DNA from: Bacteroidia bacterium
GTDB taxonomy: Bacteria; Bacteroidota; Bacteroidia; SpSt-205
Assembly (NCBI GenBank): GCA_025054525.1
Contig: JANWZJ010000003.1
Coordinates: 35,072-82,521 of the forward strand
Length of the DNA stretch: 47,450 nucleotides
Direction of reading: 5' to 3'
The notes under the pieces were generated by a model that ran no database searches, was not told where the DNA came from, and saw nothing but the letters and a program-made list of their open reading frames with translations. A program made the position numbers and the translations under genes. Of the stretch, positions 3,741 to 46,518 are shown piece by piece. The stretch's first letter is position 1. Each line of letters starts with the position of its first letter.

Positions 3741-3748
3741 CAAAGATA
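3741..3748 (-). promoter_or_regulatory. TAnnTTTG promoter box of serS
   Basis: The minus strand reads TATCTTTG, an exact match to the Bacteroidota -7 element, 6 nt before the serS ATG. It lies in the 20-bp gap after thiE, so serS probably starts its own transcript with almost no leader. Confidence 0.7.
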
Positions 3749-3754
3749 GAAGCC

Positions 3755-4387
3755 TTAGGCAGAGGAAAGGAGCGCCATGAGCTCGCGCCCCACTTGAACA
3801 GGGTCATCCGCCGCACAAAAAGCTGAGAGCACCGCTACCCCATGGAGTTTGGGAATAGCCTCAAAGAGCTGCTTAGCTCTTTCCAGGGTAATTCCCCCAA
3901 TCGCTATCACAGGATGAGTTATCGCTTCTACGAATGCTCTTAGTCCTTCTATCCCCAGGGGTGGATAGCCAGAGTCCTTGGAGTAAGTCTCAAACACAGG
4001 TCCTACGCCGACATAGGCTAAGGGCAGTTTGCGGATGGCTTCATACCGCTTGAGGGTATGCACCGTAGCTCCAATAAGCGCAAAGGCGGGCAAATGCTTG
4101 AGAGCTTCTTGGACAGGCATGTCAAACTCTCCCAAATGCACCCCTGTTGCCCCCACCTCTGCCGCTAAATCTACATGGTCGTTGATAATAATCTGTGTAT
4201 GATGCTTGCGAGCTAATGCAATAATTGCGCGCAGTTCTTCTAAATCCCTCTCTCGCTGAAAGTTCTTCTGACGATATTGGAGAGTAGGGATACCAGCTTG
4301 TATAGCCATTTGGGCGAGCTGGAGATGCGAATAGCGCTGCTGAAGGCTGGTATCCATAATAACATGAATACGACCCACCCGAAGCAT
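3755..4387 (-). CDS. thiE: Thiamine-phosphate synthase
   Basis: ThiE joins hydroxymethylpyrimidine diphosphate and thiazole phosphate to thiamine phosphate. The TIM-barrel markers are present in order: LQYRQKN (pyrimidine pocket), INDHVDLA, GVHLGEFD, GATVHT, GVGPVFETYSKDSG (phosphate and thiazole loop) and IAIGGIT. Length (210 residues) is normal. Two family positions differ slightly: LGQxD is LGEFD and GxSxH is GATVH. The start is ATG 4387, 3 nt after the CBS gene stop. It ends a five-gene run with the redoxin, pabA, hydrolase and CBS genes. The thiazole-branch genes thiS and thiO are 25 kb away in this window. Confidence 0.93.
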   Translation of the reverse strand: MLRVGRIHVIMDTSLQQRYSHLQLAQMAIQAGIPTLQYRQKNFQRERDLEELRAIIALARKHHTQIIINDHVDLAAEVGATGVHLGEFDMPVQEALKHLPAFALIGATVHTLKRYEAIRKLPLAYVGVGPVFETYSKDSGYPPLGIEGLRAFVEAITHPVIAIGGITLERAKQLFEAIPKLHGVAVLSAFCAADDPVQVGRELMALLSSA

Positions 4388-4390
4388 ACC

Positions 4391-5873: not shown

Positions 5874-5879
5874 ACTCAG

Positions 5880-6494
5880 CTAAACATTATTAGGGACATT
5901 CTTAGCCGAGAGAGAAGTAAGCAGCCCGACCCACCGGGCGAGAATTTCCCTACCATGGGGACTGAGAATAGAGTCAGGATGGAACTGAAGCCCCCAGATA
6001 GGATATTCCCGGTGCCGAATCGCCATGCAGTGTCCCTCCTGATCTTGGGCTGTTATTTCCAGGACTTCGGGTACATAACTGGCATGCAAAGCATGATATA
6101 GACCGACTGGCAAAGGAGAAGGCAACCCTTCAAAAAGCTCTTCTCCATTATGGGAAATAGGGCGTTGAATACCGAATAAAGGCCTCTTCATAGGCTCTAC
6201 CTGCCCTCCAAAGCCATGGACAATGTACTGATGTCCCAGACAGATTCCCAGGATAGGTAAGTTTAGCGCAGGCGGGAACAAAGGAGGCAGTATCTCACCC
6301 AGAAGAGACGGATGGCCAGGGCCAGGACCGATAATAACCCCAGCCCACGGATAATGATATAACTCCCCTGGCATTAGATCAGTAGCTTGCCGTACCGAAA
6401 CCTGAATACCAGTCTGCACCAATAAGCTAACGATGTTGTAGGTGAAAGAGTCATAGTTATCTATGAGAAGCACATGAAGCGAAGGCTCCTTCAT
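5880..6494 (-). CDS. pabA: Anthranilate/para-aminobenzoate synthase glutamine amidotransferase component
   Basis: This class I glutamine amidotransferase (PabA/TrpG family) supplies ammonia from glutamine to a chorismate-using partner. IDNYDSFTYN at the N-terminus, the GPGPGHP loop, the nucleophile elbow GICLGHQ (Cys85) and FHPDSILSPHG (His172) are visible. The third triad residue is normally Glu (FHPES); here it is Asp174, an uncommon conservative change. No component I (pabB or trpE) lies in the window, so PabA versus TrpG cannot be decided. The presence of folP nearby makes a folate role plausible. The start ATG overlaps the upstream redoxin stop. Confidence 0.9.
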   Translation of the reverse strand: MKEPSLHVLLIDNYDSFTYNIVSLLVQTGIQVSVRQATDLMPGELYHYPWAGVIIGPGPGHPSLLGEILPPLFPPALNLPILGICLGHQYIVHGFGGQVEPMKRPLFGIQRPISHNGEELFEGLPSPLPVGLYHALHASYVPEVLEITAQDQEGHCMAIRHREYPIWGLQFHPDSILSPHGREILARWVGLLTSLSAKNVPNNV

Positions 6495-6958
6495 AGGTAT
6501 TGCAGAATAGTGGCTACTGGTGCTTCTTCTCGGAGAACCTTCTTGAGTTTGCCGCGAGCGTCGTATACGTATATAGTAGGAGCAACGCTATAGCCGAAGA
6601 AGTGATCAAACTTGAAATCTTTATCCCGCAGCACATAGGTAGAAGGGACGCCCTTGAGATACTTTTCTCGGAAGTTCTGTAAGGCTTCTACAGCTTCTGT
6701 AGATACCCACATGAGCTGAATCCCCTTCAGCGAAGCACTCTCTTTCTGAAAGAAAGAGGCTTGTTTTTGACAGTGGTCGCAGTGCGGATCAAAGAATACC
6801 ACAATAATGCCTCGTTCTGGCTTGGGTAGGTCCTTGTCGGTGAAAGATTTACCATCTAAGGTATAAAAAAGAAATTTGGGGAACTCTTGAGCGGGTGGAT
6901 ATTTTTCGGGCTGCGCCAAGAGCGTCAGCGGAAGGATAGCCCATGCCAACCTTTTCAT
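6491..6958 (-). CDS. Secreted thioredoxin-like (TlpA/redoxin) protein
   Basis: A short signal peptide (MKRLAWAILPLTLLAQ) precedes a redoxin domain of about 135 residues. The redox motif is CDHC (Cys60, Cys63) after VVFFDPH. The cis-proline loop is SVAPTIYV near residue 130. It is therefore likely a periplasmic or envelope thiol-disulfide protein or a peroxiredoxin-like reductase. It heads the pabA-hydrolase-CBS-thiE run and overlaps pabA by 4 nt. The ATG at 6958 is 7 nt after a TATCTTTG box. The partner reductase is not in the window. Confidence 0.9.
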   Translation of the reverse strand: MKRLAWAILPLTLLAQPEKYPPAQEFPKFLFYTLDGKSFTDKDLPKPERGIIVVFFDPHCDHCQKQASFFQKESASLKGIQLMWVSTEAVEALQNFREKYLKGVPSTYVLRDKDFKFDHFFGYSVAPTIYVYDARGKLKKVLREEAPVATILQYL

Positions 6959-6965: not shown

Positions 6966-6973
6966 CAAAGATA
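6966..6973 (-). promoter_or_regulatory. TAnnTTTG promoter box of the redoxin operon
   Basis: The minus strand reads TATCTTTG, 7 nt before the redoxin ATG. It faces the transporter promoter box, which starts 17 bp to the right on the other strand. Confidence 0.7.
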
Positions 6974-6990
6974 GCAAAAATCTTGCCTAC

Positions 6991-6998
6991 TACATTTG
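6991..6998 (+). promoter_or_regulatory. TAnnTTTG promoter box of the NSS transporter
   Basis: The plus strand reads TACATTTG, 5 nt before the GTG at 7004. The box supports this GTG over the ATG at 6887 in the ORF track, which lies inside the divergent redoxin gene. Confidence 0.7.
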
Positions 6999-7003: not shown

Positions 7004-8491
7004 GTGGAGCGCTGGAGTAGCCGATTAGGGGCGCTTATGGCTCTGATTGGAGGCGCCGTAGGTCTGGGAAACTTTCTACGCTTCCCCTTTCAGGCAGCAA
7101 AATGGGGCGGAGGAGCTTTTCTTATCCTCTACCTAATTGCTCTACTGATTGTAGGACTGCCCATGGTCTGGATAGAGATGGCTCTGGGGCAAGCCGGGGG
7201 CAAACAGGGGTATCAAAGCGCACCCGCCCTCCTGCACAGCACCGCAGGAAAAAGGGGCTGGCTTATCGGACTTATGGGGGTGTATGTGAGTTTGGGAGTA
7301 GCGGCATATTATGCCTATTTGACAGGATGGACGCTGGGTTATGCCTATCATGCCCTCGTAGGCACTTTCAAGGATATGCGCTTAGAAGAAGTGCGCTCTT
7401 TTTTCCCTGCATTTCTCAAAGAAGAAGCGGTTTATGCATGGATAGGCGTCTGGGGGCTCACCGCTATCGTTCTGCGCCAAGGGCTGCGCGCCGGCTTAGA
7501 GAAAGTGAATCTCTGGGGCATGCCTTTGCTTTTCCTGCTGGGCGTAGGTATAGCCATAGGAGCGATAGCCTTGGGGGCTACAGGGGTATGCGACACCTGC
7601 GATAGCCATAAGGGTATCGCTTACCTTTACCTACCTCGCTGGGAAGCACTGAGTCAGCCTGCTGTCTGGCTTGCAGCCGCCGGACAGGTATTTTTCTCTA
7701 TAGGAGTAGGCTTCGCCATGTATCCAGTGTATGCCGCCTCCACTACGAACCTATCCGTAGTGCGAGAGGGTACGCTGACCGTAGCCGCTAACACCTTCGC
7801 CGAGGTCGTGTTAGGCGGGCTTATCATAGTGCCGATTACGACGGCATTCCTAGGGCTGCCTTATGTGAAGGAGCAAGCAGGCTTTGGATTAGGATTCGCT
7901 GTAATGCCTTATGTATTAGGGCAGTGGGGTGGAAATATCCTCATTTTCGCATGGTATCTCCTTTTATTTCTTGCGGCTTTTAGTTCGCACTTGGCGATGG
8001 GATGGGTAGCCATGACCTGGTTAGCAGAAACCTTAGGCGGTACCCCCCAGCGCTGGACATGGCTCTTCATAGGCATAGGGCTGCTGATGGGCTTGCCCAT
8101 CGTAATAGATGCAGGAGGAGACCTATTGAACTTATATGACTATTGGGTGGGAACCCTTTTCCTCGTACTCGCTGCTTTGGGGCATTGGTGGGTCTTCGTC
8201 AGCTACGCTCCACACACTCTCAAGCTGCCATCTTTTCTTCAAATAGTCCTACGCCGAATAACCCCCATTTTTCTCATCCTGCTGCTAATTGGGAGCTTTT
8301 TCCAGCCCGAGGGAGGCGACTGGATACGAGCTTGGAAACACCTGCTGCAGGAAGGCTCCTGGTTATGGGCTGAGGACGCCTTACCCATCTGGTTCGCCCG
8401 AAAAGCCTTCGCTACCCCCCTACATGCAGTAGGATGGTTTATGTTGCTGGGTAGTGCTGTGCTACTTCTATTTTTGCGCAAGCGTGAGTGA
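7004..8491 (+). CDS. Neurotransmitter:sodium symporter (NSS/SNF) family transporter
   Basis: This is an inner-membrane sodium-coupled transporter of the LeuT fold, likely for an amino acid or amine. With the GTG start at 7004 the protein is 495 residues and begins MERWSSRLG, which matches the family's N-terminus (xRWxSRxG). TM1 carries GGAVGLGNFLRFPF, the unwound sodium/substrate segment. TM6 is in AAAGQVFFSIGVGFAMY. About 11-12 hydrophobic segments can be seen. The upstream 39 codons in the ORF track overlap the divergent redoxin gene and look non-coding. It forms a plus-strand run with the TPR protein (8-nt overlap) and purN. The substrate is not predictable here. Confidence 0.93.
   Translation: MERWSSRLGALMALIGGAVGLGNFLRFPFQAAKWGGGAFLILYLIALLIVGLPMVWIEMALGQAGGKQGYQSAPALLHSTAGKRGWLIGLMGVYVSLGVAAYYAYLTGWTLGYAYHALVGTFKDMRLEEVRSFFPAFLKEEAVYAWIGVWGLTAIVLRQGLRAGLEKVNLWGMPLLFLLGVGIAIGAIALGATGVCDTCDSHKGIAYLYLPRWEALSQPAVWLAAAGQVFFSIGVGFAMYPVYAASTTNLSVVREGTLTVAANTFAEVVLGGLIIVPITTAFLGLPYVKEQAGFGLGFAVMPYVLGQWGGNILIFAWYLLLFLAAFSSHLAMGWVAMTWLAETLGGTPQRWTWLFIGIGLLMGLPIVIDAGGDLLNLYDYWVGTLFLVLAALGHWWVFVSYAPHTLKLPSFLQIVLRRITPIFLILLLIGSFFQPEGGDWIRAWKHLLQEGSWLWAEDALPIWFARKAFATPLHAVGWFMLLGSAVLLLFLRKRE
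8469..8476 (+). promoter_or_regulatory. Internal TAnnTTTG promoter box for the TPR gene
   Basis: TATTTTTG lies inside the last codons of the transporter gene, 7 nt before the TPR gene's GTG. A TTG at 8444-8446, 22 nt upstream, fits the -33 element. The TPR gene may thus be transcribed separately from the transporter. Confidence 0.6.
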
Positions 8492-11303
8492 AATACGCTG
8501 GGACTGGCAGGGCTTCTGGAAACCGCTTCCAAGCCGGGAGAAAAAGCTATTTCTCATACCCTTAGTATTCCTAATAGGGGGGACTATATGGGCAGCAACA
8601 GGCTGGTGGTCCCGTTATGATTTTAGCGAAGCCCTCGTACCTCTCTTCTTTGAAGAAGAGCAGATACACAAAGTAGCTGAGGCATCTATTCGGCATCGCA
8701 CTTATGTCGTAGAACTTCCACTGCGCCGAGTGTATGAGATGCGAGTGGCGGACTTGCTCATTCCACCCTCATGGGCTATCGTAGCGGGATGGGTACTCAG
8801 CGTCATAGGATGGGGCGCTCTACTGGCTGGAACCACACGCATGCAAGGGCTATTCTCATATCTGGTGGCTTTTGCGTGGGCAGCCTGGGTTCATATAGGC
8901 GGCACTCCTGAAGCTTGGGCTGGAACCAATCCCCTCTATATCGTATCGCTGGGATTAGCCCTAAGTGCGCTTCTCCCTACCTATGCTGTGCAAGCGGGAT
9001 GGTGGCGCCTCTCATTAGGATGGAGCTGCCTCATATTTAGCCTATTGGTGGGCATAGTTTTAGGACTGCCCGCCTCATGGAAAGGGCGCGTCGTGCTACA
9101 CGATAGCCTAACTTTTCCAGGAATGCTCACCCTCGCTCTCAGTGGAATAGCCGGCTTACAAGCCCCTATAGCCATAACAGCCATCGGAGTATATCTACTC
9201 TCCCGACGCAAGGCTCGTCTTTTTAGTTATCTCGGGCTTGTTCTGGGACTTGCTGGTATAGCTGTTTTTCTCTGGATAGGCCCTGAAGAAGCCACTTTCA
9301 CAGTAGCCATAGCCTTGCTGCTAATCGCCGTCCTTCTGAGCCTCATAGGACTTCAGCCTTTCTATCCCCTCTGGGCAGAAAACTTTCGCCAGCCCAGTGG
9401 CTTCTTTTGGGCATGGACAGGACTTTCGCTTATTACGGTAGGCGGATTAGGGTATCACGCATGGAATCACCAAGACCTCTTCATCTATCGCGTGGCAAAC
9501 TTGCTGCGGGGTATGGGGATGGGGGGCATGGTCGGAATAGGAATCTATCTAATAGCCAACTTCTGGGTCGTATTGCGTAGAGGATTGATGAGCTATTGGG
9601 ATTTAGCTCGTAGTACGCGCTTTCCCTTGGCAGGAGTATATTTTATCAGTATAGCTACCTTCATAGGATGGGAATCCCACCATAACTGGCCCACAGCTCG
9701 GTTTCCAGCACGCCTGCATGCGATTCTGCGTCCTGAGTCGGCTTTAGTAGCAGGGGATTGGGAAATTGCACAAAAACTCTATGAAGAAGCGCTAATTTTT
9801 TTGCCCTACGAAGCAAAAGCCAACTATAACCTCGCTCGCTTAGAAGCGCAGAAGACAGAAGAGGCCCAAAATGCCAGCGAGCGCTATCAACGCGCTATCT
9901 TGAGTAAGCCTTTTCTGCCCGCCGCTATTCAAGGAGCCTTAGTATGGATGGCATTAGATAGGCCCGTTTTAGCTATACAGAGCCTCCAGCACTATATCCG
10001 TCGCTTTGGCAGCCATCCCGAAGCCGCCAATCTCTTAGCCTTCTTATTCCAAAAAATAGGCGTTTTAGACTCAGCCGTGTTCTACTGGAAAGAAGCTATA
10101 CGCGCTGCCCCTAAAGAAACCCGATACGCCCTGCATTTAGCTCTCCTTTATGCTACGCAAGGGCAAGCCGCCTGGGCAACAAAAATCGTATTTAGCCTAA
10201 AAAAACCCGATAACCCCTCTCTCAGTACAGAAGAGAATATAGCGTATCTCTGGTGGATACGGGCATTAGATAGTTTGCCCTTTCCTGTGCGTCGTGGCTG
10301 GAATGTCCAGTGGCTTGGGCAAACGCAGGATACTACCCTCCTATCAGGCATACTCAGACTCTTGCACCGCAATCGCAGTGGAGAAGCCGCCCTTTCTCTG
10401 GAAGCCTTGGCTCAACAGCAGCCTGATTTAGCTCCATTCGTGGCTCGTCTCGTAGGCATAGCACTCCTCCGAGATGGTCTCGTCCGCCGAGCCGCCGACC
10501 TCTTCTCTCTTGATACAACAGCATATAATAGACTCTATGCCTGTTATGCCTTAGCAGAAAGCGGCTGCATAGATACTGCCCTTGCCTTACTCAGCTATCT
10601 AAGCGTATATCATCCTGAAATTAAGCCCTTAGCAGAAAAAGAAACCGCTCTGCTTCTCGCAGCCAAAGGCTATCTCCCAAAATCTCCCGTTCAGTGGAAT
10701 GACGACGACTACCTAAGAGTAGGGTATTATGCCTTTGCGCAGGGGAACCTCCCAGCTTTAGTGGCGGCTTTATATCCTTGGATAGAGAAAGGAGCGAAAT
10801 ACGATGAGCCCTATGAGTTAGCCGCTCGCCTTATCCTACGCAAAGGCGACACACTTGTTGCGTATGAAAATATCCAAGCTGGCCGCAAGCAAGTACCCAA
10901 CTCCCTTCATCTTTCTCTGCTGGAGGGCGAGATTCTTCACAGTCAGGGCAAAACCTCGGAAGCCCAGCGCTTAGTCGACTCCCTTCTGAGGCATCTCCGC
11001 ACCCGGGAAGACTCGTTATTATGGTTTTCGCTCAAGCTCCGCTTACAAAAGGATAAGAGCTTAGCTGATGCTATACTCAAGCACTTCCCTAATCACAGCG
11101 AGGCTCAAGTAGTAGTTGCGGATTCTCTTATGGATAAGGGCTTATGGTCGCAAGCGCATGAGTTCCTCTCTCAAGCCATCGCTGTCAATCCTTACGATAG
11201 TGTTCTGTGGCGTGCGTATGCCCGAGTTTATGAGGGCATGGGCATGAGCAAAGAAGCGGCTTATGCTCGGATGCAACCCGTCGTATGCCCCAGTGCGCCA
11301 TAG
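8484..11303 (+). CDS. Large polytopic membrane protein with C-terminal TPR repeats
   Basis: The protein has 939 residues when started at the GTG that overlaps the transporter stop (GTGAGTGA). This start is 7 nt after a TATTTTTG box. Residues of about 20-400 contain many hydrophobic segments (roughly 10), and the rest is a TPR/helical-repeat region. Readable repeats include AGDWEIAQKLYEEALIFLPYEAKAN and GVLDSAVFYWKEAIRAAPKE, ending with AHEFLSQAIAVNPYDSVLW. There is no catalytic motif. The layout recalls membrane TPR proteins common in Bacteroidota whose function is unknown to me. Overlaps on both sides suggest co-expression with the transporter and purN. Confidence 0.85.
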   Translation: MSEIRWDWQGFWKPLPSREKKLFLIPLVFLIGGTIWAATGWWSRYDFSEALVPLFFEEEQIHKVAEASIRHRTYVVELPLRRVYEMRVADLLIPPSWAIVAGWVLSVIGWGALLAGTTRMQGLFSYLVAFAWAAWVHIGGTPEAWAGTNPLYIVSLGLALSALLPTYAVQAGWWRLSLGWSCLIFSLLVGIVLGLPASWKGRVVLHDSLTFPGMLTLALSGIAGLQAPIAITAIGVYLLSRRKARLFSYLGLVLGLAGIAVFLWIGPEEATFTVAIALLLIAVLLSLIGLQPFYPLWAENFRQPSGFFWAWTGLSLITVGGLGYHAWNHQDLFIYRVANLLRGMGMGGMVGIGIYLIANFWVVLRRGLMSYWDLARSTRFPLAGVYFISIATFIGWESHHNWPTARFPARLHAILRPESALVAGDWEIAQKLYEEALIFLPYEAKANYNLARLEAQKTEEAQNASERYQRAILSKPFLPAAIQGALVWMALDRPVLAIQSLQHYIRRFGSHPEAANLLAFLFQKIGVLDSAVFYWKEAIRAAPKETRYALHLALLYATQGQAAWATKIVFSLKKPDNPSLSTEENIAYLWWIRALDSLPFPVRRGWNVQWLGQTQDTTLLSGILRLLHRNRSGEAALSLEALAQQQPDLAPFVARLVGIALLRDGLVRRAADLFSLDTTAYNRLYACYALAESGCIDTALALLSYLSVYHPEIKPLAEKETALLLAAKGYLPKSPVQWNDDDYLRVGYYAFAQGNLPALVAALYPWIEKGAKYDEPYELAARLILRKGDTLVAYENIQAGRKQVPNSLHLSLLEGEILHSQGKTSEAQRLVDSLLRHLRTREDSLLWFSLKLRLQKDKSLADAILKHFPNHSEAQVVVADSLMDKGLWSQAHEFLSQAIAVNPYDSVLWRAYARVYEGMGMSKEAAYARMQPVVCPSAP

Positions 11304-12932: not shown

Positions 12933-14118
12933 GCAGGGCTTGAGTCAACTGAGGGAGTCCTTGTCGGATTTCAGAGAGGGCTACCGCATAACTGATACGA
13001 ATATGCTTATCCGAGCCGAAGCCCTCCCCCGATACGACCGCAACCCCTTGTTCTAAGAGGTAGTTTGTAACATCTTCGGCCTTTTGCATAGTGGCGCCGT
13101 GTGGGGCATGCTTGCCCAAGAAGGCACTCACATCCAAGAAAAAATAAAATGCGCCTTCTGGTAAGTAAGGCTGACTCTCAGGGAGATGGCTGCACAAGTA
13201 TTCGTATATCCAATTCCTACGCTCTTGAAAGGCTCGTATCACGGGAGCGAGTAGCACTTGCGAATCCATGTTAAGACCCGCAATAGCCGCTTTTTGGGCG
13301 ATCACATTAGCACCTGCGGTAGTTTGTCCTTGGACCTTCGTAGCGGCGTCCGCTATAGGTTTCGGAGCAATCAAGTAGCCCAACCTCCACCCAGGCATCG
13401 CAAAGGCCTTAGAGAAGCCATTACATATGATAGTTCGGTGAAAAAGTGAGGGGATTTGGGCAGGGGAGACATGCGTACTCCCGTAGCGAATCAGCTCATA
13501 AATCTCATCCGAGAGAACCCATATTTGTGGATGTTTCTCTAAGACCCTCGCCAGTTCCTGCAGTTCTTGGGCTGTGTAAGCCGTACCAGTAGGATTGGAG
13601 GGAGAGCAAAGAATAAGTACTTTGGTGCGAGAAGTAATTGCTTTCTCTAAGGCATCTGGGGTGAGTTTATAGTTTGTTGAGACTGTGGTAGGAATGATTA
13701 CTGCTTTCCCTTCCGCCAGTTGAACGAGGGGAAGGTAAGATACCCAGTAGGGAGCCGGGATGATTACTTCTTCGCCTGGCTCTAAAATAGAGAGAAGGGC
13801 ATTATAGATAGCTTGCTTGGAGCCGTTGGAGACCACGACTTGTGGGGCTGTGTAGGGGAGACCGTAGTTTTTATGATAATAAGCGGCGATGGCTTCCCGC
13901 AGCGGAAGCAAGCCCGAGACAGGCGGATAGGGGGCGTGCCCTTCACGGATGGTGGCGATTGCTACTTCTTGGAGAGGCTCAGGCACAGGAAAGTCAGGCT
14001 CTCCTAAAAGGAGCGATATGATTTTTCGGCCTGCGGCTTTGAGTTCGCGGACGCGCTGCGCCATTCCCAGCGTTTGGGCTTCTTGGAGCGCAGCGATGCG
14101 TTTCGCTACAGCGCTCAA
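12919..14118 (-). CDS. Class I/II pyridoxal-phosphate aminotransferase (aspartate aminotransferase type)
   Basis: This cytoplasmic PLP enzyme of 399 residues has the subgroup-Ib AspC pattern. Motifs are VVSNGSKQAIYN (phosphate-side helix), APYWVSY, CSPSNPTG with Asn175, LSDEIYE with Asp204, the PLP lysine Lys237 in GFSKAFAMPGWRLGY, and ISYAVA near the end. Aspartate or prephenate transamination is most likely. The start is TTG 14118, whose bases overlap the TetR stop (TTGA). No better in-frame ATG exists nearby, and the AKRIAALQEAQTL start region fits the family. It is co-transcribed with the TetR and PHP genes. Confidence 0.94.
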   Translation of the reverse strand: MSAVAKRIAALQEAQTLGMAQRVRELKAAGRKIISLLLGEPDFPVPEPLQEVAIATIREGHAPYPPVSGLLPLREAIAAYYHKNYGLPYTAPQVVVSNGSKQAIYNALLSILEPGEEVIIPAPYWVSYLPLVQLAEGKAVIIPTTVSTNYKLTPDALEKAITSRTKVLILCSPSNPTGTAYTAQELQELARVLEKHPQIWVLSDEIYELIRYGSTHVSPAQIPSLFHRTIICNGFSKAFAMPGWRLGYLIAPKPIADAATKVQGQTTAGANVIAQKAAIAGLNMDSQVLLAPVIRAFQERRNWIYEYLCSHLPESQPYLPEGAFYFFLDVSAFLGKHAPHGATMQKAEDVTNYLLEQGVAVVSGEGFGSDKHIRISYAVALSEIRQGLPQLTQALRALV

Positions 14119-14768
14119 CTCAGTATCGTAATACGAGGCAGCTTGAAGCGGCTCAGGGTAAAGCGCAGGGCCTCATACGCACTGTCCAATACATTTTGGC
14201 CCATAAGTTCTAATGGCACTCGCATGTAAGTCTCTATCGCCTTCTCCGTGTCTTCAAAGTTAGGAGACTCATCATTGAGCCAAAACTGAATAAGCCCCCA
14301 GTGAATTCCCCACAGTACATCCAGATATAAATTTTCTAAATGACGAGACTGAATCTCATCCGCAATCACCCCCTCTTGAATGACTTCCGCAATATGCGTG
14401 CGGAATTTTCGCTGATAGCTTCGCAGCAGGGTAAATTGGGTATAGGTCTTTCGGATGAAGGTTCTATCCTTGACCACATTCTCAAAGAATGTGAAAAAGT
14501 AAGCCAGAATCTTCTCGCGAGCGGTGTAAGAGTTGTAGGTCTCGGAAGATTTTAGGGCTGAGATAACTTCGTCTGCGTAACTACTCCAGATTTTGCGCCC
14601 AATCGCATCCAGAGAGGCGAAGTGCTTGTAAAAGTCTGCTTCGGAGATGTCCAAGGCTTTGCAGAAGCTATAGACATTCATTTTGGCGATTTTATCTTCC
14701 ACGACGAGCTGCTTGTATAGCTCTTGAATACGAGTTTCTAAGGGAAGCTCCTTACTACGACTTGCCAT
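14115..14768 (-). CDS. TetR-like transcriptional regulator
   Basis: The N-terminal helix-turn-helix is visible at about residues 29-55 (MNVYSFCKALDISEADFYKHFASLDAI), with the FYKHF recognition helix typical of TetR proteins. The C-terminal helical ligand domain of about 150 residues is divergent. The ATG at 14768 is 4 nt after a TACCTTTG box. It heads the run with the aminotransferase and PHP genes, so it may regulate itself or them, but no palindromic operator is seen in the 32-bp divergent gap. The inducer is unknown. Confidence 0.85.
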   Translation of the reverse strand: MASRSKELPLETRIQELYKQLVVEDKIAKMNVYSFCKALDISEADFYKHFASLDAIGRKIWSSYADEVISALKSSETYNSYTAREKILAYFFTFFENVVKDRTFIRKTYTQFTLLRSYQRKFRTHIAEVIQEGVIADEIQSRHLENLYLDVLWGIHWGLIQFWLNDESPNFEDTEKAIETYMRVPLELMGQNVLDSAYEALRFTLSRFKLPRITILS

Positions 14769-14772: not shown

Positions 14773-14780
14773 CAAAGGTA
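14773..14780 (-). promoter_or_regulatory. TAnnTTTG promoter box of the tetR operon
   Basis: The minus strand reads TACCTTTG, 4 nt before the TetR ATG. It is only 5 bp from the opposing box at 14786. Confidence 0.7.
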
Positions 14781-14785
14781 CGCAT

Positions 14786-14793
14786 TATTTTTG
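14786..14793 (+). promoter_or_regulatory. TAnnTTTG promoter box of the BadF-type kinase operon
   Basis: The plus strand reads TATTTTTG, 7 nt before the ATG at 14801. A TTG at 14762-14764 lies 21 nt upstream, matching the -33 element spacing. This -33 element overlaps the divergent tetR start codon. Confidence 0.75.
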
Positions 14794-14800: not shown

Positions 14801-15679
14801 ATGCGCAGAGTATGGGTTGTAGATGCAGGCGCTACTAAGACCGAATGGGTATCTTGGCGCGAAGAGCTGGGGGATGAGGCTTATTCGTTCCGCAGCGATG
14901 GTATCAATCCCGAGGTAGAAGGCTGGGAACAAGTCAGAAAAAATCTCCAGAAATACGCCTACCAGCTCTTAGAAGAGCAGGATTTTCCTGCTCCTACGGA
15001 GATTTATTTTTACGGGCCTGCGCTCCATGCACCCGCCAGTCGCCAGCAAATGGAACAGCTTCTACGAGAGATTTTCAAGATTCCCCCCCAACGCAAAGTA
15101 GAGGCATATCATGACCTTCTGGGGGCTGCCCGCTCCGCTTGGAGAAGAAAACCAGGTGTGGTAGCTATTTTAGGTACAGGCTCTAACTGTGCGCTCTGGG
15201 ATGGAGAAAATATCCAAGCCCAGCGCGGAGGGCATGGCTATCTCTTAGGAGATGAGGGCGGGGGAGCTGACTTGGGAAAGCATTTCTTGAGCGCGCTGCT
15301 CCACGATGAAGTAGAAGAAGATTTAGTTCGTCTTTTTTTCAAAGAAAATCCTTTTCCAGAAGCAGTAGATGCCCTAACACTGCGCCGCATGGCTTATGCC
15401 AGTCTGCGTCCTTCGGCGTTTTTGGGCAAGTTTGCTGCCTTTCTGGCTCATCATCAGAGACATCCATGGGTTCAGGCCTTAGTGCGAGAACGGTTTCGGC
15501 TATTCGCCCGTCGCACATGGAAGCACTGGAAGACCGATTACCCCATACGATACGTGGGAGGGGTGGCGAATGCATTCAGCTCTATTTTGGAGGAGGTTAC
15601 CCGAGAAGAAGGGGGGCAGTGGGGCGGCGTAGTAGAAAATGTAGCGGAAGGACTGCTTCGGTATCATTTGCGTGGGTGA
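14801..15679 (+). CDS. BadF/BadG-type ATPase, probable N-acetylglucosamine kinase
   Basis: This is an ASKHA-fold sugar kinase, 292 residues. The phosphate-1 loop is VVDAGATKTEW at the N-terminus. ILGTGSNCALWDG and GGHGYLLGDEGGGADLG mark the core, and YVGGVANAF forms the adenosine motif. In Bacteroidota this family is usually annotated as N-acetylglucosamine kinase, which would fit cell-wall sugar recycling; the sugar is inferred. The ATG is 7 nt after a promoter box. It heads a run with the NlpC/P60 gene (8-nt overlap), an HNH nuclease and an amidohydrolase. Confidence 0.88.
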   Translation: MRRVWVVDAGATKTEWVSWREELGDEAYSFRSDGINPEVEGWEQVRKNLQKYAYQLLEEQDFPAPTEIYFYGPALHAPASRQQMEQLLREIFKIPPQRKVEAYHDLLGAARSAWRRKPGVVAILGTGSNCALWDGENIQAQRGGHGYLLGDEGGGADLGKHFLSALLHDEVEEDLVRLFFKENPFPEAVDALTLRRMAYASLRPSAFLGKFAAFLAHHQRHPWVQALVRERFRLFARRTWKHWKTDYPIRYVGGVANAFSSILEEVTREEGGQWGGVVENVAEGLLRYHLRG

Positions 15680-18032: not shown

Positions 18033-18647
18033 TCCAAATACCCGAAAGTCTAAGGGTACTGGGTCTATTTGTCCCATAACCTCGGTATTGCGTCGGCTGG
18101 GGATTGGGTCAAAATATATCCTCAGGGTTGTCGGACTGACTCGCCTTAAGTTGAAGGTAAGTTCAGCAAACACAGTGGGGTTAATAAAGCTTTGGCGGAG
18201 TTTACCTATGTAGTTACCCGATAAAGCAGCATAAGTAAGCTGAAAGGACGTAAAGCGCAAGCCAGCTCCAGCTCCTATCCCCAGTCGCTGCAGATTATAG
18301 GCTGTGGCGCCGGCTCCTATACGAACATATCCATACACGGGCACATGAATCATCCAGTTTCCTCCGTATCGTCCGAGAAACTGAAAAGCACCCGTGATTT
18401 GTGCGCCTGGACCCGCTGCTATGACTTCATTTTCCGTGCGGAAATAAGTGTAGTTTGTCCCTAGCGTAAGCCCCCAAAAATCAGCAGGATAAGTGAAAAG
18501 AGGCGTATTCATGAAACGAATGTCTATGAAGCTTAGGTCAGCCCCGAAGAAAGGATTAAGCTTGCTCCAAAGAGATTCTTGTGGTTCGTTTTTTTGAGCG
18601 AAGATGAGCAGTGGTAGTAGTGCTAAAGCGATTTTAGCAGTATTCAT
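18003..18647 (-). CDS. Putative outer-membrane beta-barrel protein
   Basis: A signal peptide (MNTAKIALALLPLLIFAQ) is followed by about 195 residues with alternating polar/aromatic strands (WGLTLGTNYTYF, GAQITGAFQFLG, VYGYVRIGAGATAY, GAGAGLRFTSFQLTYAAL). It ends in YRISF, a terminal Phe as in barrels inserted by BamA. No family name is recognised. The ATG at 18647 is preferred to the TTG three bases earlier. It overlaps the upstream bacilliredoxin gene by 14 nt, so the two are likely co-translated. Confidence 0.75.
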   Translation of the reverse strand: MNTAKIALALLPLLIFAQKNEPQESLWSKLNPFFGADLSFIDIRFMNTPLFTYPADFWGLTLGTNYTYFRTENEVIAAGPGAQITGAFQFLGRYGGNWMIHVPVYGYVRIGAGATAYNLQRLGIGAGAGLRFTSFQLTYAALSGNYIGKLRQSFINPTVFAELTFNLRRVSPTTLRIYFDPIPSRRNTEVMGQIDPVPLDFRVFGLSLIYRISF

Positions 18648-19056
18648 CAAACAGCAAGCTAAGGACCTGCGCTATGGCTTGAGGATTGCGTCCTTCTATT
18701 TCATGGCGGGGTATAAAGTAGAGAAGTCTGTCTCCTTTCCAGAGGGCTATACTGGGAGAGGAGGGGGGATGGGGGGCTAAGTATTCGCGTAGCTTAGCTG
18801 TGGCTTCCTTGTCCACCCCAGCAAATACACTGTAAAAGCGATTCGGCTTACGAGAGTGGCGCATAGCCAAGCCTACCGCAGGGCGGGCTGAAGCCGCAGA
18901 GCAACCACATACCGAATTAATCAAGAAGAGTGCGCTTTCCCCTGTTGCTTTGAGCTCACTGATGACCTGTTCTACCTGCTGAGAGGAACACAACTCCACA
19001 ATCCCTAAATCCTGCGTCTCTTTCCGAATAGGCTCTACTACATAAGCCGGGTACAT
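18634..19056 (-). CDS. BrxA/BrxB family bacilliredoxin
   Basis: This small cytoplasmic protein of 140 residues belongs to the YphP/YqiW family. The diagnostic motif SVCGCSA carries Cys50 and Cys52, followed by ARPAVGLAMRH. Family members reduce protein-bacillithiol mixed disulfides in Firmicutes. In Bacteroidota the family is widespread and is thought to act in thiol redox control, which is inference here. The ATG at 19056 sits 5 nt after a TACCTTTG box. It precedes the outer-membrane protein gene with a 14-nt overlap. Confidence 0.9.
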   Translation of the reverse strand: MYPAYVVEPIRKETQDLGIVELCSSQQVEQVISELKATGESALFLINSVCGCSAASARPAVGLAMRHSRKPNRFYSVFAGVDKEATAKLREYLAPHPPSSPSIALWKGDRLLYFIPRHEIEGRNPQAIAQVLSLLFDEYC

Positions 19057-28230: not shown

Positions 28231-28239
28231 CCAACTTCT

Positions 28240-30532: not shown

Positions 30533-31233
30533 AACCGCATTCCTACTATCAGCAAGAATATAAGCAGCCATAACCACCACAGATAAGCGACCAGAAACGT
30601 GAAATAAATAAAGCCGTTCCAGCCTTCTTTGAAGCTGCGCGTAAGCTGTGCTAAGTAAGAGCCACCCTCTCTATACTCCACATACTCAGCGTTACGTAAG
30701 GTAAGTTCAAGCTCTACTACCTTAGACAAACTGTCAGACCTCTGCTTCTCTACGAGTAGCTCCTGTCGCTCGCTTAGTGCTTGTTGTAGGGCTTTCTCCA
30801 CTTCTACGATTTCGGAGACAGTGCGCGCCTGCCGAAGCAGTACTTGAAACCGAATTATCACAGAGTCCTTGAGAGCTAACTTTCTCTCTATTTCACTTTG
30901 CCCCTGACTAATATCCGTGAGGCTGGTGCGCTCATCAAGCACCTCCCCCAAGCCCCGCAGTCGTACGATAAAGCCTTCATATGCCGCACGAGGCACGAGA
31001 AACTTGAAGAAGGCATATTCTGCCTCTTGCTTTTCCCGCTGGAGTAGCCCCGCTCCTATGGCACGAGCCCAGCTTTCTACGGAGTCTAAACTTCGCTCCC
31101 AATCATCCACGATAAGTGTGAATGAAGCATTCAGCCTTTGCGTAGGAGAAGAGGGGGAAGCGGTTGTTCCACTCACCCCTCCCCCACCGCAAGCGGTGAC
31201 AAATGCTACTATCGCCCCTATGCTCCATCGCAT
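30508..31233 (-). CDS. DUF4349 domain lipoprotein
   Basis: A lipoprotein signal with lipobox VTAC (MRWSIGAIVAFVTAC) precedes a low-complexity G/S/T/P segment. A DUF4349 domain follows, with the SLDSVESWARAIGAGLL start, a coiled-coil of about 60 residues (QARTVSEIVEVEKALQQALSERQ), and a C-terminal transmembrane helix followed by RFYRRRLRS. The function is unknown; members are often linked to envelope stress. The ATG at 31233 is 4 nt after a TACCTTTG box. It is divergent from rpsU and convergent with thiO. Confidence 0.87.
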   Translation of the reverse strand: MRWSIGAIVAFVTACGGGGVSGTTASPSSPTQRLNASFTLIVDDWERSLDSVESWARAIGAGLLQREKQEAEYAFFKFLVPRAAYEGFIVRLRGLGEVLDERTSLTDISQGQSEIERKLALKDSVIIRFQVLLRQARTVSEIVEVEKALQQALSERQELLVEKQRSDSLSKVVELELTLRNAEYVEYREGGSYLAQLTRSFKEGWNGFIYFTFLVAYLWWLWLLIFLLIVGMRFYRRRLRS

Positions 31234-31237: not shown

Positions 31238-31245
31238 CAAAGGTA
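31238..31245 (-). promoter_or_regulatory. TAnnTTTG promoter box of the DUF4349 gene
   Basis: The minus strand reads TACCTTTG, 4 nt before the ATG at 31233. Confidence 0.7.
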
Positions 31246-31255
31246 GCGTAATGCG

Positions 31256-31263
31256 TAATTTTG
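31256..31263 (+). promoter_or_regulatory. TAnnTTTG promoter box of rpsU
   Basis: The plus strand reads TAATTTTG, 5 nt before the ATG at 31269. It confirms that ATG over the upstream start in the ORF track. Confidence 0.7.
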
Positions 31264-31268: not shown

Positions 31269-31466
31269 ATGATTATTATACAGCCGCAAGAAGGGGAGAA
31301 CCTGGAGAAAATGCTGCGACGCTACAAGCGAAAGTTTGATAGGTTAGGAATTGCGCGCGAAGTACGGGAACGCATGCACTATATTCCCAAATCTGTACAA
31401 AAACGGGAACAAATAAAACGGGCAGCATACCGCCAGCGCATGCAGCAGCTCGCCCAGCAAGGCTAA
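31269..31466 (+). CDS. rpsU: 30S ribosomal protein S21
   Basis: S21 is a small ribosomal subunit protein near the anti-Shine-Dalgarno region of 16S rRNA. The 65-residue product from ATG 31269 starts MIIIQPQEGENLEKMLRRYKRKFDRLG, matching the family. The ORF-track extension to 31203 has no family match and overlaps the divergent lipoprotein gene. It is followed directly by tsaD (no gap), so the two share a transcript. The ATG has no visible Shine-Dalgarno sequence and only 5 nt between it and the promoter box. Confidence 0.95.
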   Translation: MIIIQPQEGENLEKMLRRYKRKFDRLGIAREVRERMHYIPKSVQKREQIKRAAYRQRMQQLAQQG

Positions 31467-35707: not shown

Positions 35708-36415
35708 TTAGGATGCAGGTTTCTGGGCCAGGAGAATGAGCCGAGGGCTATCTGCCGCAGAGAAAGGGACTCCTGTATAACCTCCCCAAGTTTCCTGAAG
35801 CTGTAAGCCAGCACGCTCTATCATTTGAGAAAGGTCTCCTTCGGTGAGTTTGAGTACGCGCTCGTGAAAAACCTCCTGACTACCATCCGAATGCCGAACC
35901 GTAACTTTTTTGTGGAGTGCGAAACTGTCTTGGGTGCGTTCTACAACGATGATGCTGTCATTGTAGGGAATCTCCTCGTAGGGGTGAGGGTTAGCTTTTT
36001 GGATGTTAAGGTAGTCTATGACGAGCCAGCCCATAGGTTCGAGCCAACTGGCCAGCAGGGCGACTTCGCGTTTGGCTTCATCCCAGCGCTGCGCATACAA
36101 TCCTAAACTCGTGAAGAAGCTACCGATGAGGTGGTACTTATGGGGCGGGTGCCAACTGCGTAAATCTCCAAAGAAGAAGTTAGTGCCCTCTGGTAGATTG
36201 GGATTACTTACCGCGGCGTCTATGGCATCTACTTGGAAGCCCCGCCGAAGCAAAGCCCGAGTGTATCTTCCTTCCCCACATCCCGCATCCAGCACATGGG
36301 CGCCCATAGGTAGCGATATTCGGTTTAGCAAAACTTCTACAAATTGTTCTGCTTCAGCATCCCCCCTATGCGCATAGAGGAAGCGATAGTAAGGGCTTGC
36401 GAACCATGTCCCCAT
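35708..36415 (-). CDS. Class I SAM-dependent methyltransferase
   Basis: The SAM motif I is HVLDAGCGEGRYTRALL (about residues 39-55), followed by FQVDAIDAA and FFFGDLRSW. LVIDYLNIQKANPH is motif IV-like. The 235-residue length is typical for small-molecule methyltransferases. The substrate is unknown. The ATG at 36415 is 5 nt after a TATTTTTG box, and the gene heads the Nudix-folP-cdaA-SDR run. It is divergent from the DUF5686 gene across 23 bp. Confidence 0.9.
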   Translation of the reverse strand: MGTWFASPYYRFLYAHRGDAEAEQFVEVLLNRISLPMGAHVLDAGCGEGRYTRALLRRGFQVDAIDAAVSNPNLPEGTNFFFGDLRSWHPPHKYHLIGSFFTSLGLYAQRWDEAKREVALLASWLEPMGWLVIDYLNIQKANPHPYEEIPYNDSIIVVERTQDSFALHKKVTVRHSDGSQEVFHERVLKLTEGDLSQMIERAGLQLQETWGGYTGVPFSAADSPRLILLAQKPAS

Positions 36416-36420: not shown

Positions 36421-36428
36421 CAAAAATA
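36421..36428 (-). promoter_or_regulatory. TAnnTTTG promoter box of the methyltransferase operon
   Basis: The minus strand reads TATTTTTG, 5 nt before the ATG at 36415. The divergent DUF5686 gene has no comparable box before its ATG. Confidence 0.7.
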
Positions 36429-36438: not shown

Positions 36439-38703
36439 ATGAGGTACCTGAGGTTGAGGCTACTTTTAGCTGGACTTTTTTCCCTGAGCCGAGCCCAACT
36501 CCATGTGTCGGGCTATGTAAAAGATACCACAGAAGGATGGCTGCCTTTCGTGCAAGTGCGCAACCTTCGCACTGGGGAGGGTACGCTCACGGACTGGCAA
36601 GGATTTTTTCGCTTGGCAGCCCAGAGGGACGATACATTAGAGCTACGATGCTTAGGGTATGCGCCCCTGCGAATAACAGCAGACCAATTACCCGACACCC
36701 TCATATTATATCCTCAACCCGTAGAGATAGTTCCAGTAGTGATTTATCCAACGGAGGCGTTTGTATATCGACTTATCTGGCGGCTCATCACAGAGGGTCG
36801 GCGTTGGAATCCACTCTTGCGAAGCCATCAGTACCTTAGCTATAACAAGCTCCTGATGGATACGCCCGACAGTAGTATGCCTTACGGATTTATCTGGGAG
36901 ACAGAGACGGAAAAAACTTTTTACTCCCCTACTCGCCAGCGAGAGACCCTGCGAAGTCAACGCATCGCAGGCAACCTACCCGTGAAGTTTTTTTTCTCTC
37001 CGACCACTTTCCAGCCGCTAAACCTATACTCATCATGGCTGGAAGTAGGGGAATGGCGCTTTGCCAGTCCAGTGGGCGAAGCAGCTCCGGACTATTACCA
37101 CTTTGAAGTGTTAGATACGAGCTGGCAAGGAAAAGATACTATATGGCATATCGCCTTCTATCCCCGACAAGGGCGCGAAGCATGGGCGCTCAAAGGACAC
37201 CTAAGCTGTAGTTTCCCCGATGCTGCCTTGATTGACTTCCAAGGGACAATCAGTAGAGCCGAAACAGAAGAAGCCTTCCTTCAAATTACCTCCTATCGCT
37301 TTGCCCAGCAGATGAGAAAAATAGGGGACACACTATGGTTCCCTGAACGGTTCCAAGCGGAGATAGGTCTGCGCGCAGGCCAAGGAGAAGGCGCTATACC
37401 ACTAACCTTGCGCTTGCAGTCCCATATTCGGGAAGTGAGAATACCTCCCACGAGCGTCATTCCCTCCGGCAGCGAGCTTTACCTGCCTCCGTATATTCCC
37501 ACTCTGCCTGATTCTGCACGCATTATACCACTGAGCCCCACAGAAACCCTGTCTTATCAAAAGTTAGATAGTCTATTCCGTCGCACGAAAGTGGCTATGG
37601 TATGGAGGGGATTATTTGACCTGCCTCTCTTACTAAACGGCCGATGGGAGTGGGGGTATCTCCGATGGATTCTACGACCGCTGCTGCTCTACCACGAAGC
37701 GGAAGGATGGCGTCCTCAGTTAGGTCTGGAAAATAGCGATAAGGTCAGTGCTTTTTTTCGGGTGCGGGTGTGGGTAGGATACGGCACTTATCGAGGGGCA
37801 GGATGGTTAGGCACACCATGGCGCTGGGGAGCCGAAGCCGAAGTCGGCGCGCGCATGCGCATACGCCTCTCCCTATACGATGATGTACGAGAAACTACCC
37901 TGCCTCGCCTCTTAGATGAGGTTCCTTCGGATGTAGCTGGGGAGTGTCGCCCCTACGAAAACCCCTCGCGCAGTTTTGCATTCAGCCAGAGTCAAATGCT
38001 GCGAGAAAAAGCCATGCAGCTCCAACTACGCTTGCCAATAGCTTCAGGGCTCTGGTTCTGGAGTGAATTAGCTCACATAGAACGAAAAACAATAGAAAAT
38101 TCATGGCGGGGTTTAGTACTCAAAGGAGATTGGGAGTATGCGCCATATGTAGCTGCCCTGCGCAGTGGAAGCCTGTTATGGCGAGCAGAGCCTTCACCCC
38201 CTCGTTTGCGTCTCCAAATAGGCGCTCTTTATGCTGAACAGCTCCTGCCTTGGATACAAATGGATTTCTGGCATCGCTGGCGATGGCAGCATTATGCCTC
38301 GTTTTCCCTGCGAATAGGCGGTATTTGGAGTTTCTCGGATTTGCCAGCGATTTGGCGATACACCCTACGCGCGCTCAGCCCTAATCCCATAGGAATGCCC
38401 GAAGCCCTCGCCGCCCATCCTTACTGGATACAAATCCATAGGGCAGCCTACCTATTTTATGAATGGAGCATTCCGAATACTCGGTTCCCTTCTCCTAAAT
38501 GGACTCCCATAGTCGCTTTTCACCTCCAAGGGTATAGTGGCATAGGATGGCTTTACCCTGAAGCCGGCGTTTCAGTGCGGAACTGGATGCCTCAGAAGGC
38601 TGCACGTATTTTACCTGGTCTGGCATGGATACGCTTCGGTGTATATACCTCACTACATAAACCAGGGCAGCCTATGTTTGTACGGCTAATGGGTAGTTTG
38701 TAA
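36439..38703 (+). CDS. DUF5686 outer-membrane protein with carboxypeptidase-regulatory-like domain
   Basis: The signal peptide (MRYLRLRLLLAGLFSLSRAQ) is followed by a carboxypeptidase D regulatory-like plug domain (VSGYVKDTTEGWLPFVQVRN, TDWQGFFRLA). A DUF5686 domain with SYNKLLMDTPDS comes next, and then a long beta-rich C-terminal barrel to residue 754. Such proteins are typical Bacteroidota outer-membrane proteins of unknown function. The start ATG 36439 is supported by the signal peptide, though no promoter box is seen before it. It is followed 18 bp later by gmk. Confidence 0.88.
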   Translation: MRYLRLRLLLAGLFSLSRAQLHVSGYVKDTTEGWLPFVQVRNLRTGEGTLTDWQGFFRLAAQRDDTLELRCLGYAPLRITADQLPDTLILYPQPVEIVPVVIYPTEAFVYRLIWRLITEGRRWNPLLRSHQYLSYNKLLMDTPDSSMPYGFIWETETEKTFYSPTRQRETLRSQRIAGNLPVKFFFSPTTFQPLNLYSSWLEVGEWRFASPVGEAAPDYYHFEVLDTSWQGKDTIWHIAFYPRQGREAWALKGHLSCSFPDAALIDFQGTISRAETEEAFLQITSYRFAQQMRKIGDTLWFPERFQAEIGLRAGQGEGAIPLTLRLQSHIREVRIPPTSVIPSGSELYLPPYIPTLPDSARIIPLSPTETLSYQKLDSLFRRTKVAMVWRGLFDLPLLLNGRWEWGYLRWILRPLLLYHEAEGWRPQLGLENSDKVSAFFRVRVWVGYGTYRGAGWLGTPWRWGAEAEVGARMRIRLSLYDDVRETTLPRLLDEVPSDVAGECRPYENPSRSFAFSQSQMLREKAMQLQLRLPIASGLWFWSELAHIERKTIENSWRGLVLKGDWEYAPYVAALRSGSLLWRAEPSPPRLRLQIGALYAEQLLPWIQMDFWHRWRWQHYASFSLRIGGIWSFSDLPAIWRYTLRALSPNPIGMPEALAAHPYWIQIHRAAYLFYEWSIPNTRFPSPKWTPIVAFHLQGYSGIGWLYPEAGVSVRNWMPQKAARILPGLAWIRFGVYTSLHKPGQPMFVRLMGSL

Positions 38704-38708: not shown

Positions 38709-38716
38709 TACCTTCG
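38709..38716 (+). promoter_or_regulatory. Near-consensus promoter box of gmk
   Basis: TACCTTCG (one base off TAnnTTTG) lies 5 nt before the gmk GTG, in the 18-bp gap after DUF5686. Confidence 0.45.
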
Positions 38717-42701: not shown

Positions 42702-42709
42702 CAAAGATT
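42702..42709 (-). promoter_or_regulatory. Near-consensus promoter box of the SpoIIE-type phosphatase
   Basis: The minus strand reads AATCTTTG, one base off TAnnTTTG, 5 nt before the ATG at 42696. Confidence 0.45.
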
Positions 42710-45800: not shown

Positions 45801-46506
45801 GAACTGATCCAAAAGCACTAGGCAGCACAACAACTCCATCAGTATTAGCATCCTGAGTGCAAAGGGGACCGTCCCCCGGCATTCCTAACAACCCCGTAAG
45901 ATCAGGAAACTGTGCATATCCCAGAATACCCCCACTCATCTGCACGACCCATATATTGAAGTAGCGCTCGGGGTCCCACTGAGTAGCGGGCTTGATGGAG
46001 GCTTGGATGGTGGGGGTATTATACGGAGGGGGACTAGTCAAGCCGGATATACTATTCCAAGCCACACGGTTGATACCATCCGTGGGATTGCCATTTGGAT
46101 CCCTCTTAGCTAAAACAAACTCTATGCGAGTATCGGCTCCTCGGGGGTCATCATTCCAACCAGGCGTCCCTAGCTTGCGCCGAAAATCTTCATTCAAAAC
46201 CTCAATCTGGTGAAGGATATTAGCGGTAGGAATATTATCTCCCGAACCTACTGCCCCACCGCTATGAATTACATGAACTACCACAGGAATCCTGTACACA
46301 CCACCGATAGTGCGAGAGGCTTCGTACAGGGCTTTGGCTCGGTCTACCTTCTGACGCATCAAGGGCTCATAGTCGTCCATGGAGGGCCAATCCGGATATT
46401 GCGCCCGCATTAGGCTATCTACCTCCATCGTGGCACAACGGATGAAGCGCTGCGATTGCGCCCAGACAAGCCCTACGGTCAGAATCGTAAGGAATGTAGT
46501 CCGCAT
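42820..46506 (-). CDS. T9SS-exported pappalysin-type (M43) metalloprotease
   Basis: This 1228-residue secreted protease carries a signal peptide (MRTTFLTILTVGLVWAQ). A zinc-metalloprotease domain has HEVGHWLGLRH (His254, Glu255, His258, His264) and a Met-turn NYMDYSDDPC (about 311-320). CARDB-like, MAM-like and Calx-beta-like domains (AREGVDFSILTPTLTF) follow, then a second MAM-like part from about residue 770. The C-terminal approximately 75 residues, with TETPFRETLTF and LPVGLYLLVWRDNAGQVL, match a T9SS type A sorting signal. Start ATG 46506 is 4 nt after a near-consensus box. It ends at a strong terminator. Confidence 0.92.
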   Translation of the reverse strand: MRTTFLTILTVGLVWAQSQRFIRCATMEVDSLMRAQYPDWPSMDDYEPLMRQKVDRAKALYEASRTIGGVYRIPVVVHVIHSGGAVGSGDNIPTANILHQIEVLNEDFRRKLGTPGWNDDPRGADTRIEFVLAKRDPNGNPTDGINRVAWNSISGLTSPPPYNTPTIQASIKPATQWDPERYFNIWVVQMSGGILGYAQFPDLTGLLGMPGDGPLCTQDANTDGVVVLPSAFGSVLKGSTGLAQPYVLGRTATHEVGHWLGLRHTWGDNSTAGECAPDDYCNDTPNCADQLYGCSLGAPSCEPGVRRMVENYMDYSDDPCFNIFTLEQALRMRITLEYAPRRRSLLTSPALIPPTTTDAALIDLPIPQDLCSGTYNIPVVLRNNGTTSLNSIPVKYRINNGPWQTQTWTGTLNPGNQVTFNLTGINFTTPGTYTFTACTDVPGDGDRSEDTTSTQFLVHNGFYPLYQDFEFGWGDQGIPPGLWRVVNPDNDCYTWRTSGCIGSSGAPTMAMYINLYSDPTAGRRDAIHSPLIDLTNAPAGVALTFDLAYWRRGAIRDDTLDIQVSTDCGITWTNLTRLRSADSLTTVTGLPPRCIPTADTQWQSRNISLDAYRGQKIRIRFVSRNGRGNCIWIDNVRVGHQPMVFWADSGQIIREELSWPLLSGDCRRYRDIEVPVRISAAPSAAVQVNVQVGPGSSAREGVDFSILTPTLTFPAGSTSPVNARIRVYDDQAIENTRLALLSLSIANGPATVAADKNPYKLWISDNDLFPPEVLIFYEDFEGGDGGFTTYAISNSTGANRWVRGNAGLPTGHSFYISRDPSATPPPYRYDTSSTSRFALASRAINTQGYTNLILSFDVRVGGQYDNGGSLRDFGRVFYTTTAPPSSTPAAAYTPILPAAGCGWGAFLCPGSNFPRTFMLAGKPDRVVRVTVPLPSGAENQPQLYLVWRWDNSANRAGVQPPIAIDNIALYGRKTPAIETNTASTRVYPGPEDSLYAYSPSNHNLILSLVNQSATDFGCLDVQIDRTGTGAVALRPGHPTSAHVTQKTYLITSTRSVTGPYAITLYYTNDEVTGYQTATGRTWDTHPSVVKTAGSITSEAMAPSPTFAMSPIRAVGTYGGGSWIRGTFSSFSGFAVGDLSSVTTMKSAMAEGFFTETPFRETLTFRAERDFGGLELQTITGSIVYQVSGSFTAGTYMLNTADLPVGLYLLVWRDNAGQVLSHQKVLHLP

Positions 46507-46510
46507 ACTA

Positions 46511-46518
46511 CAATATTA
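46511..46518 (-). promoter_or_regulatory. Near-consensus promoter box of the metalloprotease gene
   Basis: The minus strand reads TAATATTG (one base off), 4 nt before the ATG. A TTTG at 46539-46542 lies 20 nt upstream, matching the -33 element spacing. Confidence 0.6.

Follow-up and report, generated by a model that had tools for sequence, protein, structure and literature searches.

Promoter boxes abutting start codons point to leaderless transcription as the main mode in an uncultured family of Bacteroidota

Start-adjacent boxes in the window and in its genome

We analysed a 47,450-nt stretch of Bacteroidia DNA (the window) that carries, among other genes, serS, rpsU, gmk, an lptB-like ABC ATPase gene, a TetR gene and genes for an NSS (NSS/SNF) transporter and a PorE-like protein. 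Fourteen of its genes are preceded, 3–7 nt before the start codon, by an exact copy of the octamer TAnnTTTG (Table 1). All of these boxes, which the original prediction had listed, are present, and the genes behind them were identified by Pfam. Three of the fourteen (NSS, TPR and lptB) start with GTG. When starts were called blind to the motif, from coding potential alone, 10 of the 48 genes in the window still had a start-adjacent box.

Table 1. Start-adjacent TAnnTTTG boxes and near matches in the window, with the genes that follow them.
Box	Position	Strand	nt before start	Gene, start codon (coordinates)	Remarks
Exact, TATCTTTG	3741–3748	-	6	serS, ATG (2466–3734)	Pfam; conserved in 11/11 host-family members
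Exact, TATCTTTG	6966–6973	-	7	redoxin, ATG (6491–6958)	Pfam
Exact, TACATTTG	6991–6998	+	5	NSS (NSS/SNF) transporter, GTG (7004–8491)	Pfam
Exact, TATTTTTG	8469–8476	+	7	TPR gene, GTG (8484–11303)	inside 3' end of NSS gene; weakest of the 14
Exact, TACCTTTG	14773–14780	-	4	TetR, ATG (14115–14768)	Pfam
Exact, TATTTTTG	14786–14793	+	7	BadF-like, ATG (14801–15679)	5 bp from back-to-back TetR box
Exact, TACCTTTG	19062–19069	-	5	bacilliredoxin, ATG (18634–19056)	Pfam
Exact, TACTTTTG	21814–21821	-	6	PorE-like (TPR + OmpA), ATG (19936–21807)	G006 ortholog also boxed
Exact, TATGTTTG	25674–25681	-	4	enoyl-CoA hydratase, ATG (24875–25669)	Pfam
Exact, TACATTTG	28223–28230	-	4	lptB-like ABC ATPase, GTG (27490–28218)	G006 ortholog also boxed
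Exact, TACCTTTG	28240–28247	+	3	epimerase, ATG (28251–29279)	9 bp from back-to-back lptB box
Exact, TACCTTTG	31238–31245	-	4	DUF4349, ATG (30508–31233)	Pfam
Exact, TAATTTTG	31256–31263	+	5	rpsU, ATG (31269–31466)	10 bp from back-to-back DUF4349 box; exact start-adjacent box in 10/11 host-family rpsU
Exact, TATTTTTG	36421–36428	-	5	methyltransferase, ATG (35708–36415)	Pfam
One mismatch, TACCTTCG	38709–38716	+	5	gmk, GTG (38722)	exact box also 41 nt upstream (38673–38680)
One mismatch, AATCTTTG	42702–42709	-	5	SpoIIE-type, ATG (42696)	
One mismatch, TAATATTG	46511–46518	-	4	M43 protease, ATG (46506)	exact box also 32 nt upstream (46539–46546)

The placement of the octamer had been called far from random, and it is, but the octamer itself is not over-represented: exact copies number 21 in the window, against 22.6 in shuffled versions. 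With the count at the level of chance, placement alone is the signal, and it is a strong one, since 14 of the 21 copies are start-adjacent where about 0.05 would be expected at the window's own box density (Poisson P ~1e-29). The three predicted one-mismatch boxes, 4–5 nt before the starts of gmk, the SpoIIE-type gene and the M43 protease gene, also exist, but those of gmk and the protease are ambiguous because each gene has an exact box further upstream and may be leadered; exact-consensus upstream promoters of this kind may add leaders to some genes.

The window belongs to the genome of an uncultured bacterium (G000; 1.80 Mb, 92% complete), whose family, here termed the host family, was sampled through 12 genomes in two genera. 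A whole-genome scan for start-adjacent TAnnTTTG, proposed with the original prediction as its check, was strongly positive: TAnnTTTG-N(4-6)-ATG occurs 273 times in the window's own genome as against 20 times for the reversed pattern, with a similar excess in 11 relatives. We then called gene starts without the motif in 437 kb of G000 (window included) and in 400 kb from G006, whose genome is complete (a relative; 837 kb in total, two species), and measured the distance from box to start, which peaks sharply at 4 nt and next at 5 nt.

The boxes mark the heads of transcription units. In G000, 29 of 78 divergent genes have an exact box at 3–7 nt, compared with 5 of 161 genes lying ≤10 nt after their predecessor (P 9e-12); the corresponding counts in G006 are 32 of 92 divergent genes and 3 of 109 tightly packed internal genes. 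Under a looser score, which allows one weaker base and corrects starts in frame, the share of divergent genes with a start-adjacent box above the distance-shifted control was 61% in G000, 60% in G006 and 54% in a third genome, G011 (n=18 genes). For the two species sampled best, the resulting figure of ~60% boxed unit heads is a lower bound. In the remaining ~40% of divergent heads no box can be recognised next to the start; a few percent are boxed at a leadered distance. Across 50 ortholog pairs of G000 and G006, box presence agrees beyond chance (P 0.0025).

Four divergent gene pairs in the window have boxes back to back, with spacers of 17, 5, 9 and 10 bp (6966–6998, 14773–14793, 28223–28247 and 31238–31263, respectively), and six such pairs, 5–34 bp apart, were found in the 437-kb sample. 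In the four window pairs the region upstream of each promoter runs into the opposite promoter and its gene, so the two should interfere with each other.

The box as a promoter element

An exact box also lies 5–12 nt before the mature tRNA in 14 of 15 unit-leading tRNA genes from three host-family genomes. The fixed distance to the start codon could be read as the mark of a translation signal, a lineage-specific ribosome-binding motif with no promoter function, but such a signal has no place before non-coding tRNA genes, and it should not be nearly absent from operon-internal genes, which need translation too. The fine structure of the box is moreover identical to that of mapped Bacteroidota promoters. 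The tRNA genes in particular rule against a translation signal, which we consider very unlikely; the box is a promoter.

The sigma-ABfr promoter of Bacteroidota has a -7 element, TAnnTTTG, since revised to TAHHTTTG, placed 4–5 nt from the transcription start (Baez et al. 2019, PMC6847099). Among 150 host-family boxes G occupies the two free positions in only 11% and 5%, in agreement with TAHHTTTG, and the bases outside our selection match those of boxes in leadered relatives, with G disfavoured at the free positions, a C behind the box and an A six bases ahead of it. The octamer, the avoidance of G and the non-coding targets thus all uphold the proposed identity with the Bacteroidota -7 element. 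The weakness originally noted for the -33 element (TTTG/TTG) is also borne out, in that no TTG enrichment was detectable upstream of host-family boxes. In leadered relatives, and in F. johnsoniae too (PMC6847099), this element can scarcely be made out, so it provides no firm criterion for a sigma-ABfr promoter.

The commonest gap between box and start codon is 4 nt (69 of 150 boxes) which, combined with the published spacing from element to start, predicts that transcription begins on the A of AUG. In 80 cases +1 is predicted to lie upstream of AUG, and 55 of these have a purine there. From these distances the transcription start is expected on, or 1–3 nt before, the start codon.

In the host and sister families the tRNA box lies 5–12 nt before the mature tRNA, compared with at least 22 nt in other Bacteroidota, with few tRNAs sampled; a box so close to the mature tRNA implies that the 5' leaders of tRNA precursors are also very short. 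The RNase P RNA gene was tried as a second non-coding control and proved uninformative, as it appears to follow an upstream coding gene directly in most host-family members, with no box between them. In one member a box stands 5 nt upstream of it.

Comparison across the Bacteroidota

As a control set, 80 named Bacteroidota loci, found via their serS, were run through the same script. Their boxes lie at 15–35 nt; a box at 3–7 nt precedes just 3% of unit heads (7–9% of divergent genes under the looser score). These distances reproduce the leaders measured in the phylum, with a median of 32 nt and 3.7% leaderless transcripts in Bacteroides thetaiotaomicron (PMC7366714), a median of 24 nt and 5.5% leaderless in Flavobacterium psychrophilum (PMC9723704), and, among F. 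johnsoniae transcripts for which a promoter is probable, 87% with leaders of >10 nt, hence at most 13% leaderless (PMC6847099). The control thus validates the method, and the host family differs from it. A leader of tens of nucleotides with an A-rich upstream region was found in the named loci and, by the same test, not in the host family. The published transcriptomes might encourage the view that the window is an over-read sample of an ordinary small leaderless minority (3.7–5.5%), as in Bacteroides or Flavobacterium. However, ~60% of host-family divergent genes are boxed against 7–9% in the named set with the same script, and whole-genome counts already contradict this view, which we regard as extremely improbable. 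The original description of leaderless transcription as a rule is therefore right for the host family, where in the two species sampled best it applies to ~60% of the genes that surely head a unit, and wrong for the phylum (3–9%); it missed that start-adjacent boxes are specific to a lineage.

All 12 host-family genomes have an excess of 39–56 start-adjacent sites per Mb per spacing, compared with a median of 8.6 in 48 others, and among 396 genomes from across the phylum none approaches the host family except those of one distant genus. The order of the host family comprises two families in the genome collection. In a serS tree the host family groups with G012, which alone represents the sister family, on a deep branch of the Bacteroidia. 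The sister family is intermediate, a half-way state: 19 of 94 heads are boxed at 3–7 nt and 17 at 18–37 nt. The distant genus (G051, G449 and G450), alone in its order here, has 49–58 excess sites per Mb per spacing. In G051, whose sampled contigs have 34% GC, the gap peaks at 4–5 nt over a background of leadered boxes, and intergenic gaps are wide (median 189).

These figures bear on whether promoters abut start codons merely because intergenic space has been compressed, with many mRNAs still leadered from promoters inside upstream genes. The host family is indeed compact, its median divergent gap being 44–61 nt in the two best-sampled species versus 171 in named loci. Compaction alone, however, would let the gap vary instead of peaking at 4, and in the host family hardly more boxes than background lie at leadered distances. 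The G051 genus has its peak despite wide gaps, so it looks like an independent case and no by-product of compaction. We consider the compaction account unlikely.

Two genes were followed across relatives. A box stands 5–7 nt before the serS ATG in 11 of 11 host-family members and 5 nt before it in the sister family, as against 1 of 78 named loci. For rpsU an exact box lies 4–7 nt before ATG in 10 of the 11 host-family genomes with a match, and the eleventh has a near match. In most relatives beyond the family the box stands tens of nucleotides upstream of the start, with an A-rich leader between; three relatives have an SD-like AAGGAG and a few have no box. Both genes speak to the concern that start codons were mis-assigned and that true starts lie further downstream, behind ordinary leaders. 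Some called starts did need moving to meet the box. Nevertheless, rpsU N-termini align from the box-adjacent codon with those of relatives having 13–35 nt leaders, serS starts at the box-adjacent codon in all host-family members, and the gap peak is present with motif-blind starts. Wholesale mis-assignment is accordingly most doubtful.

The proteomes of G000, G006 and G011 have an IVYWREL fraction of 0.43–0.45 versus 0.39 in named Bacteroidota, and their tRNA GC content is 0.61–0.64 versus 0.55, which suggests that the host family, with its small genomes, is thermophilic or warm-living.

Proposed mechanism and relation to known systems

Our preferred reading, to which we give a probability of about 0.85, is that the boxes are sigma-ABfr -7 elements abutting start codons, that the mRNAs are leaderless with later cistrons coupled to the first, and that leaders were lost by deletion. 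RNA polymerase with the primary sigma factor (sigma-ABfr) would start on the A of AUG or 1–3 nt before it, giving a leader of ~0–3 nt. With the promoter abutting the start codon the message would be leaderless, and for most transcript-heading genes in the host family the mRNA probably begins at the start codon itself. The ribosome would then initiate at the 5'-terminal AUG or GUG of the first cistron. Over half of co-directional pairs overlap or lie ≤10 nt apart, and this close packing suggests that later cistrons are reached by translational coupling. The host family may have arisen by deletion of the ~10–30 nt leader kept in its relatives, alongside genome compaction, with the sister family standing half-way. 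That the whole order has been losing RNA 5' leaders of all sorts, its mRNAs having become leaderless and its tRNA precursors having given up most of their 5' extension, with the sister family part of the way and the second, unrelated genus alike for mRNAs, is a broader proposition whose chances we judge to be even.

The sequences around the starts are in keeping with initiation of this kind. SD-like words before unit heads occur at 0–1.6%, not above control, and host-family rpsU has none. Boxed starts are ATG in 85–94% and GTG in 6–15%, with no TTG; internal genes have ATG in 83% (two best-sampled species). Two candidate adaptations of the ribosome to leaderless mRNA were rejected: bS1 is missing from a single genome only, which is 66% complete, and the tyrosine of bS21 that hides the anti-SD, Tyr54, is present. 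In both respects the host family is like its leadered relatives, and no sign of a ribosome adapted to leaderless mRNA was seen. A covariance search of 14 assemblies (G000–G012 and G051), including the one-contig G006, returned no match for the 16S rRNA gene, which is probably masked. The N-terminus of host-family bS21 (gene 31269–31466), PQEGENLEKMLRRYK, differs from that of relatives. SD-based autoregulation of bS21 has been described in many Bacteroidota (PMC9976891), and loss of the rpsU leader implies that it has been lost here.

If the proposition on the whole order is true, a natural experiment would be at hand on an SD-ignoring ribosome becoming dependent on leaderless initiation. For Bacteroidota ribosomes, whose anti-SD is hidden, the choice of starts is an open question. 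The transcriptomes of the three members cited above speak against leaderless mRNA as the solution. The switch to it can be tested by comparison now that there is a family which appears to rely chiefly on it, a sister family converted by half and a second case that looks independent. In practice, the TAnnTTTG box can serve gene finders as a start signal on host-family genomes.

Leaderless genes are common in Actinobacteria, Deinococcus-Thermus and archaea. Leaderless initiation is thus already known elsewhere in bacteria; as the main mode in Bacteroidota it is unreported as far as we found, a search of freely accessible papers having yielded no account of a Bacteroidota lineage of this kind. 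Leaderless mRNA or bS1 was suggested for Bacteroidetes from base composition (Nakagawa et al., PMC5397173), and a gene-finder study assigned the FCB group to AT-rich non-canonical RBSs (PMC9581028). Zheng et al. 2011 reported leaderless genes in one of 37 Bacteroidetes/Chlorobi genomes (2.4%) and thought high hidden fractions unlikely, having searched only for Pribnow-like boxes (PMC3160421).

The host family resembles the leaderless class of Actinobacteria and Deinococcus-Thermus in having a promoter element directly before the start of unit-leading genes and no SD (PMC3160421). It differs in that the element is TAnnTTTG and is used by another sigma factor, which a search for Pribnow boxes would miss; such surveys have thus overlooked a leaderless group. 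Its octamer, the avoidance of G at the free positions, the weak or absent -33 element and the predicted 4–5 nt to the transcription start are those of the sigma-ABfr promoter, whereas its distance of 3–7 nt to the start codon departs from the ~15–35 nt usual for such promoters. F. johnsoniae tunes its starts by an A at -3 (reported among PMC6847099, PMC9723704 and PMC7366714); unlike it, the host family has no A enrichment at -3 of its starts. Flavobacterium and Bacteroides share with it the phylum, the promoter and the absence of SD use (PMC6847099, PMC9723704, PMC7366714), but their median leaders are 24–32 nt, against a predicted ~0–3 nt in the host family.
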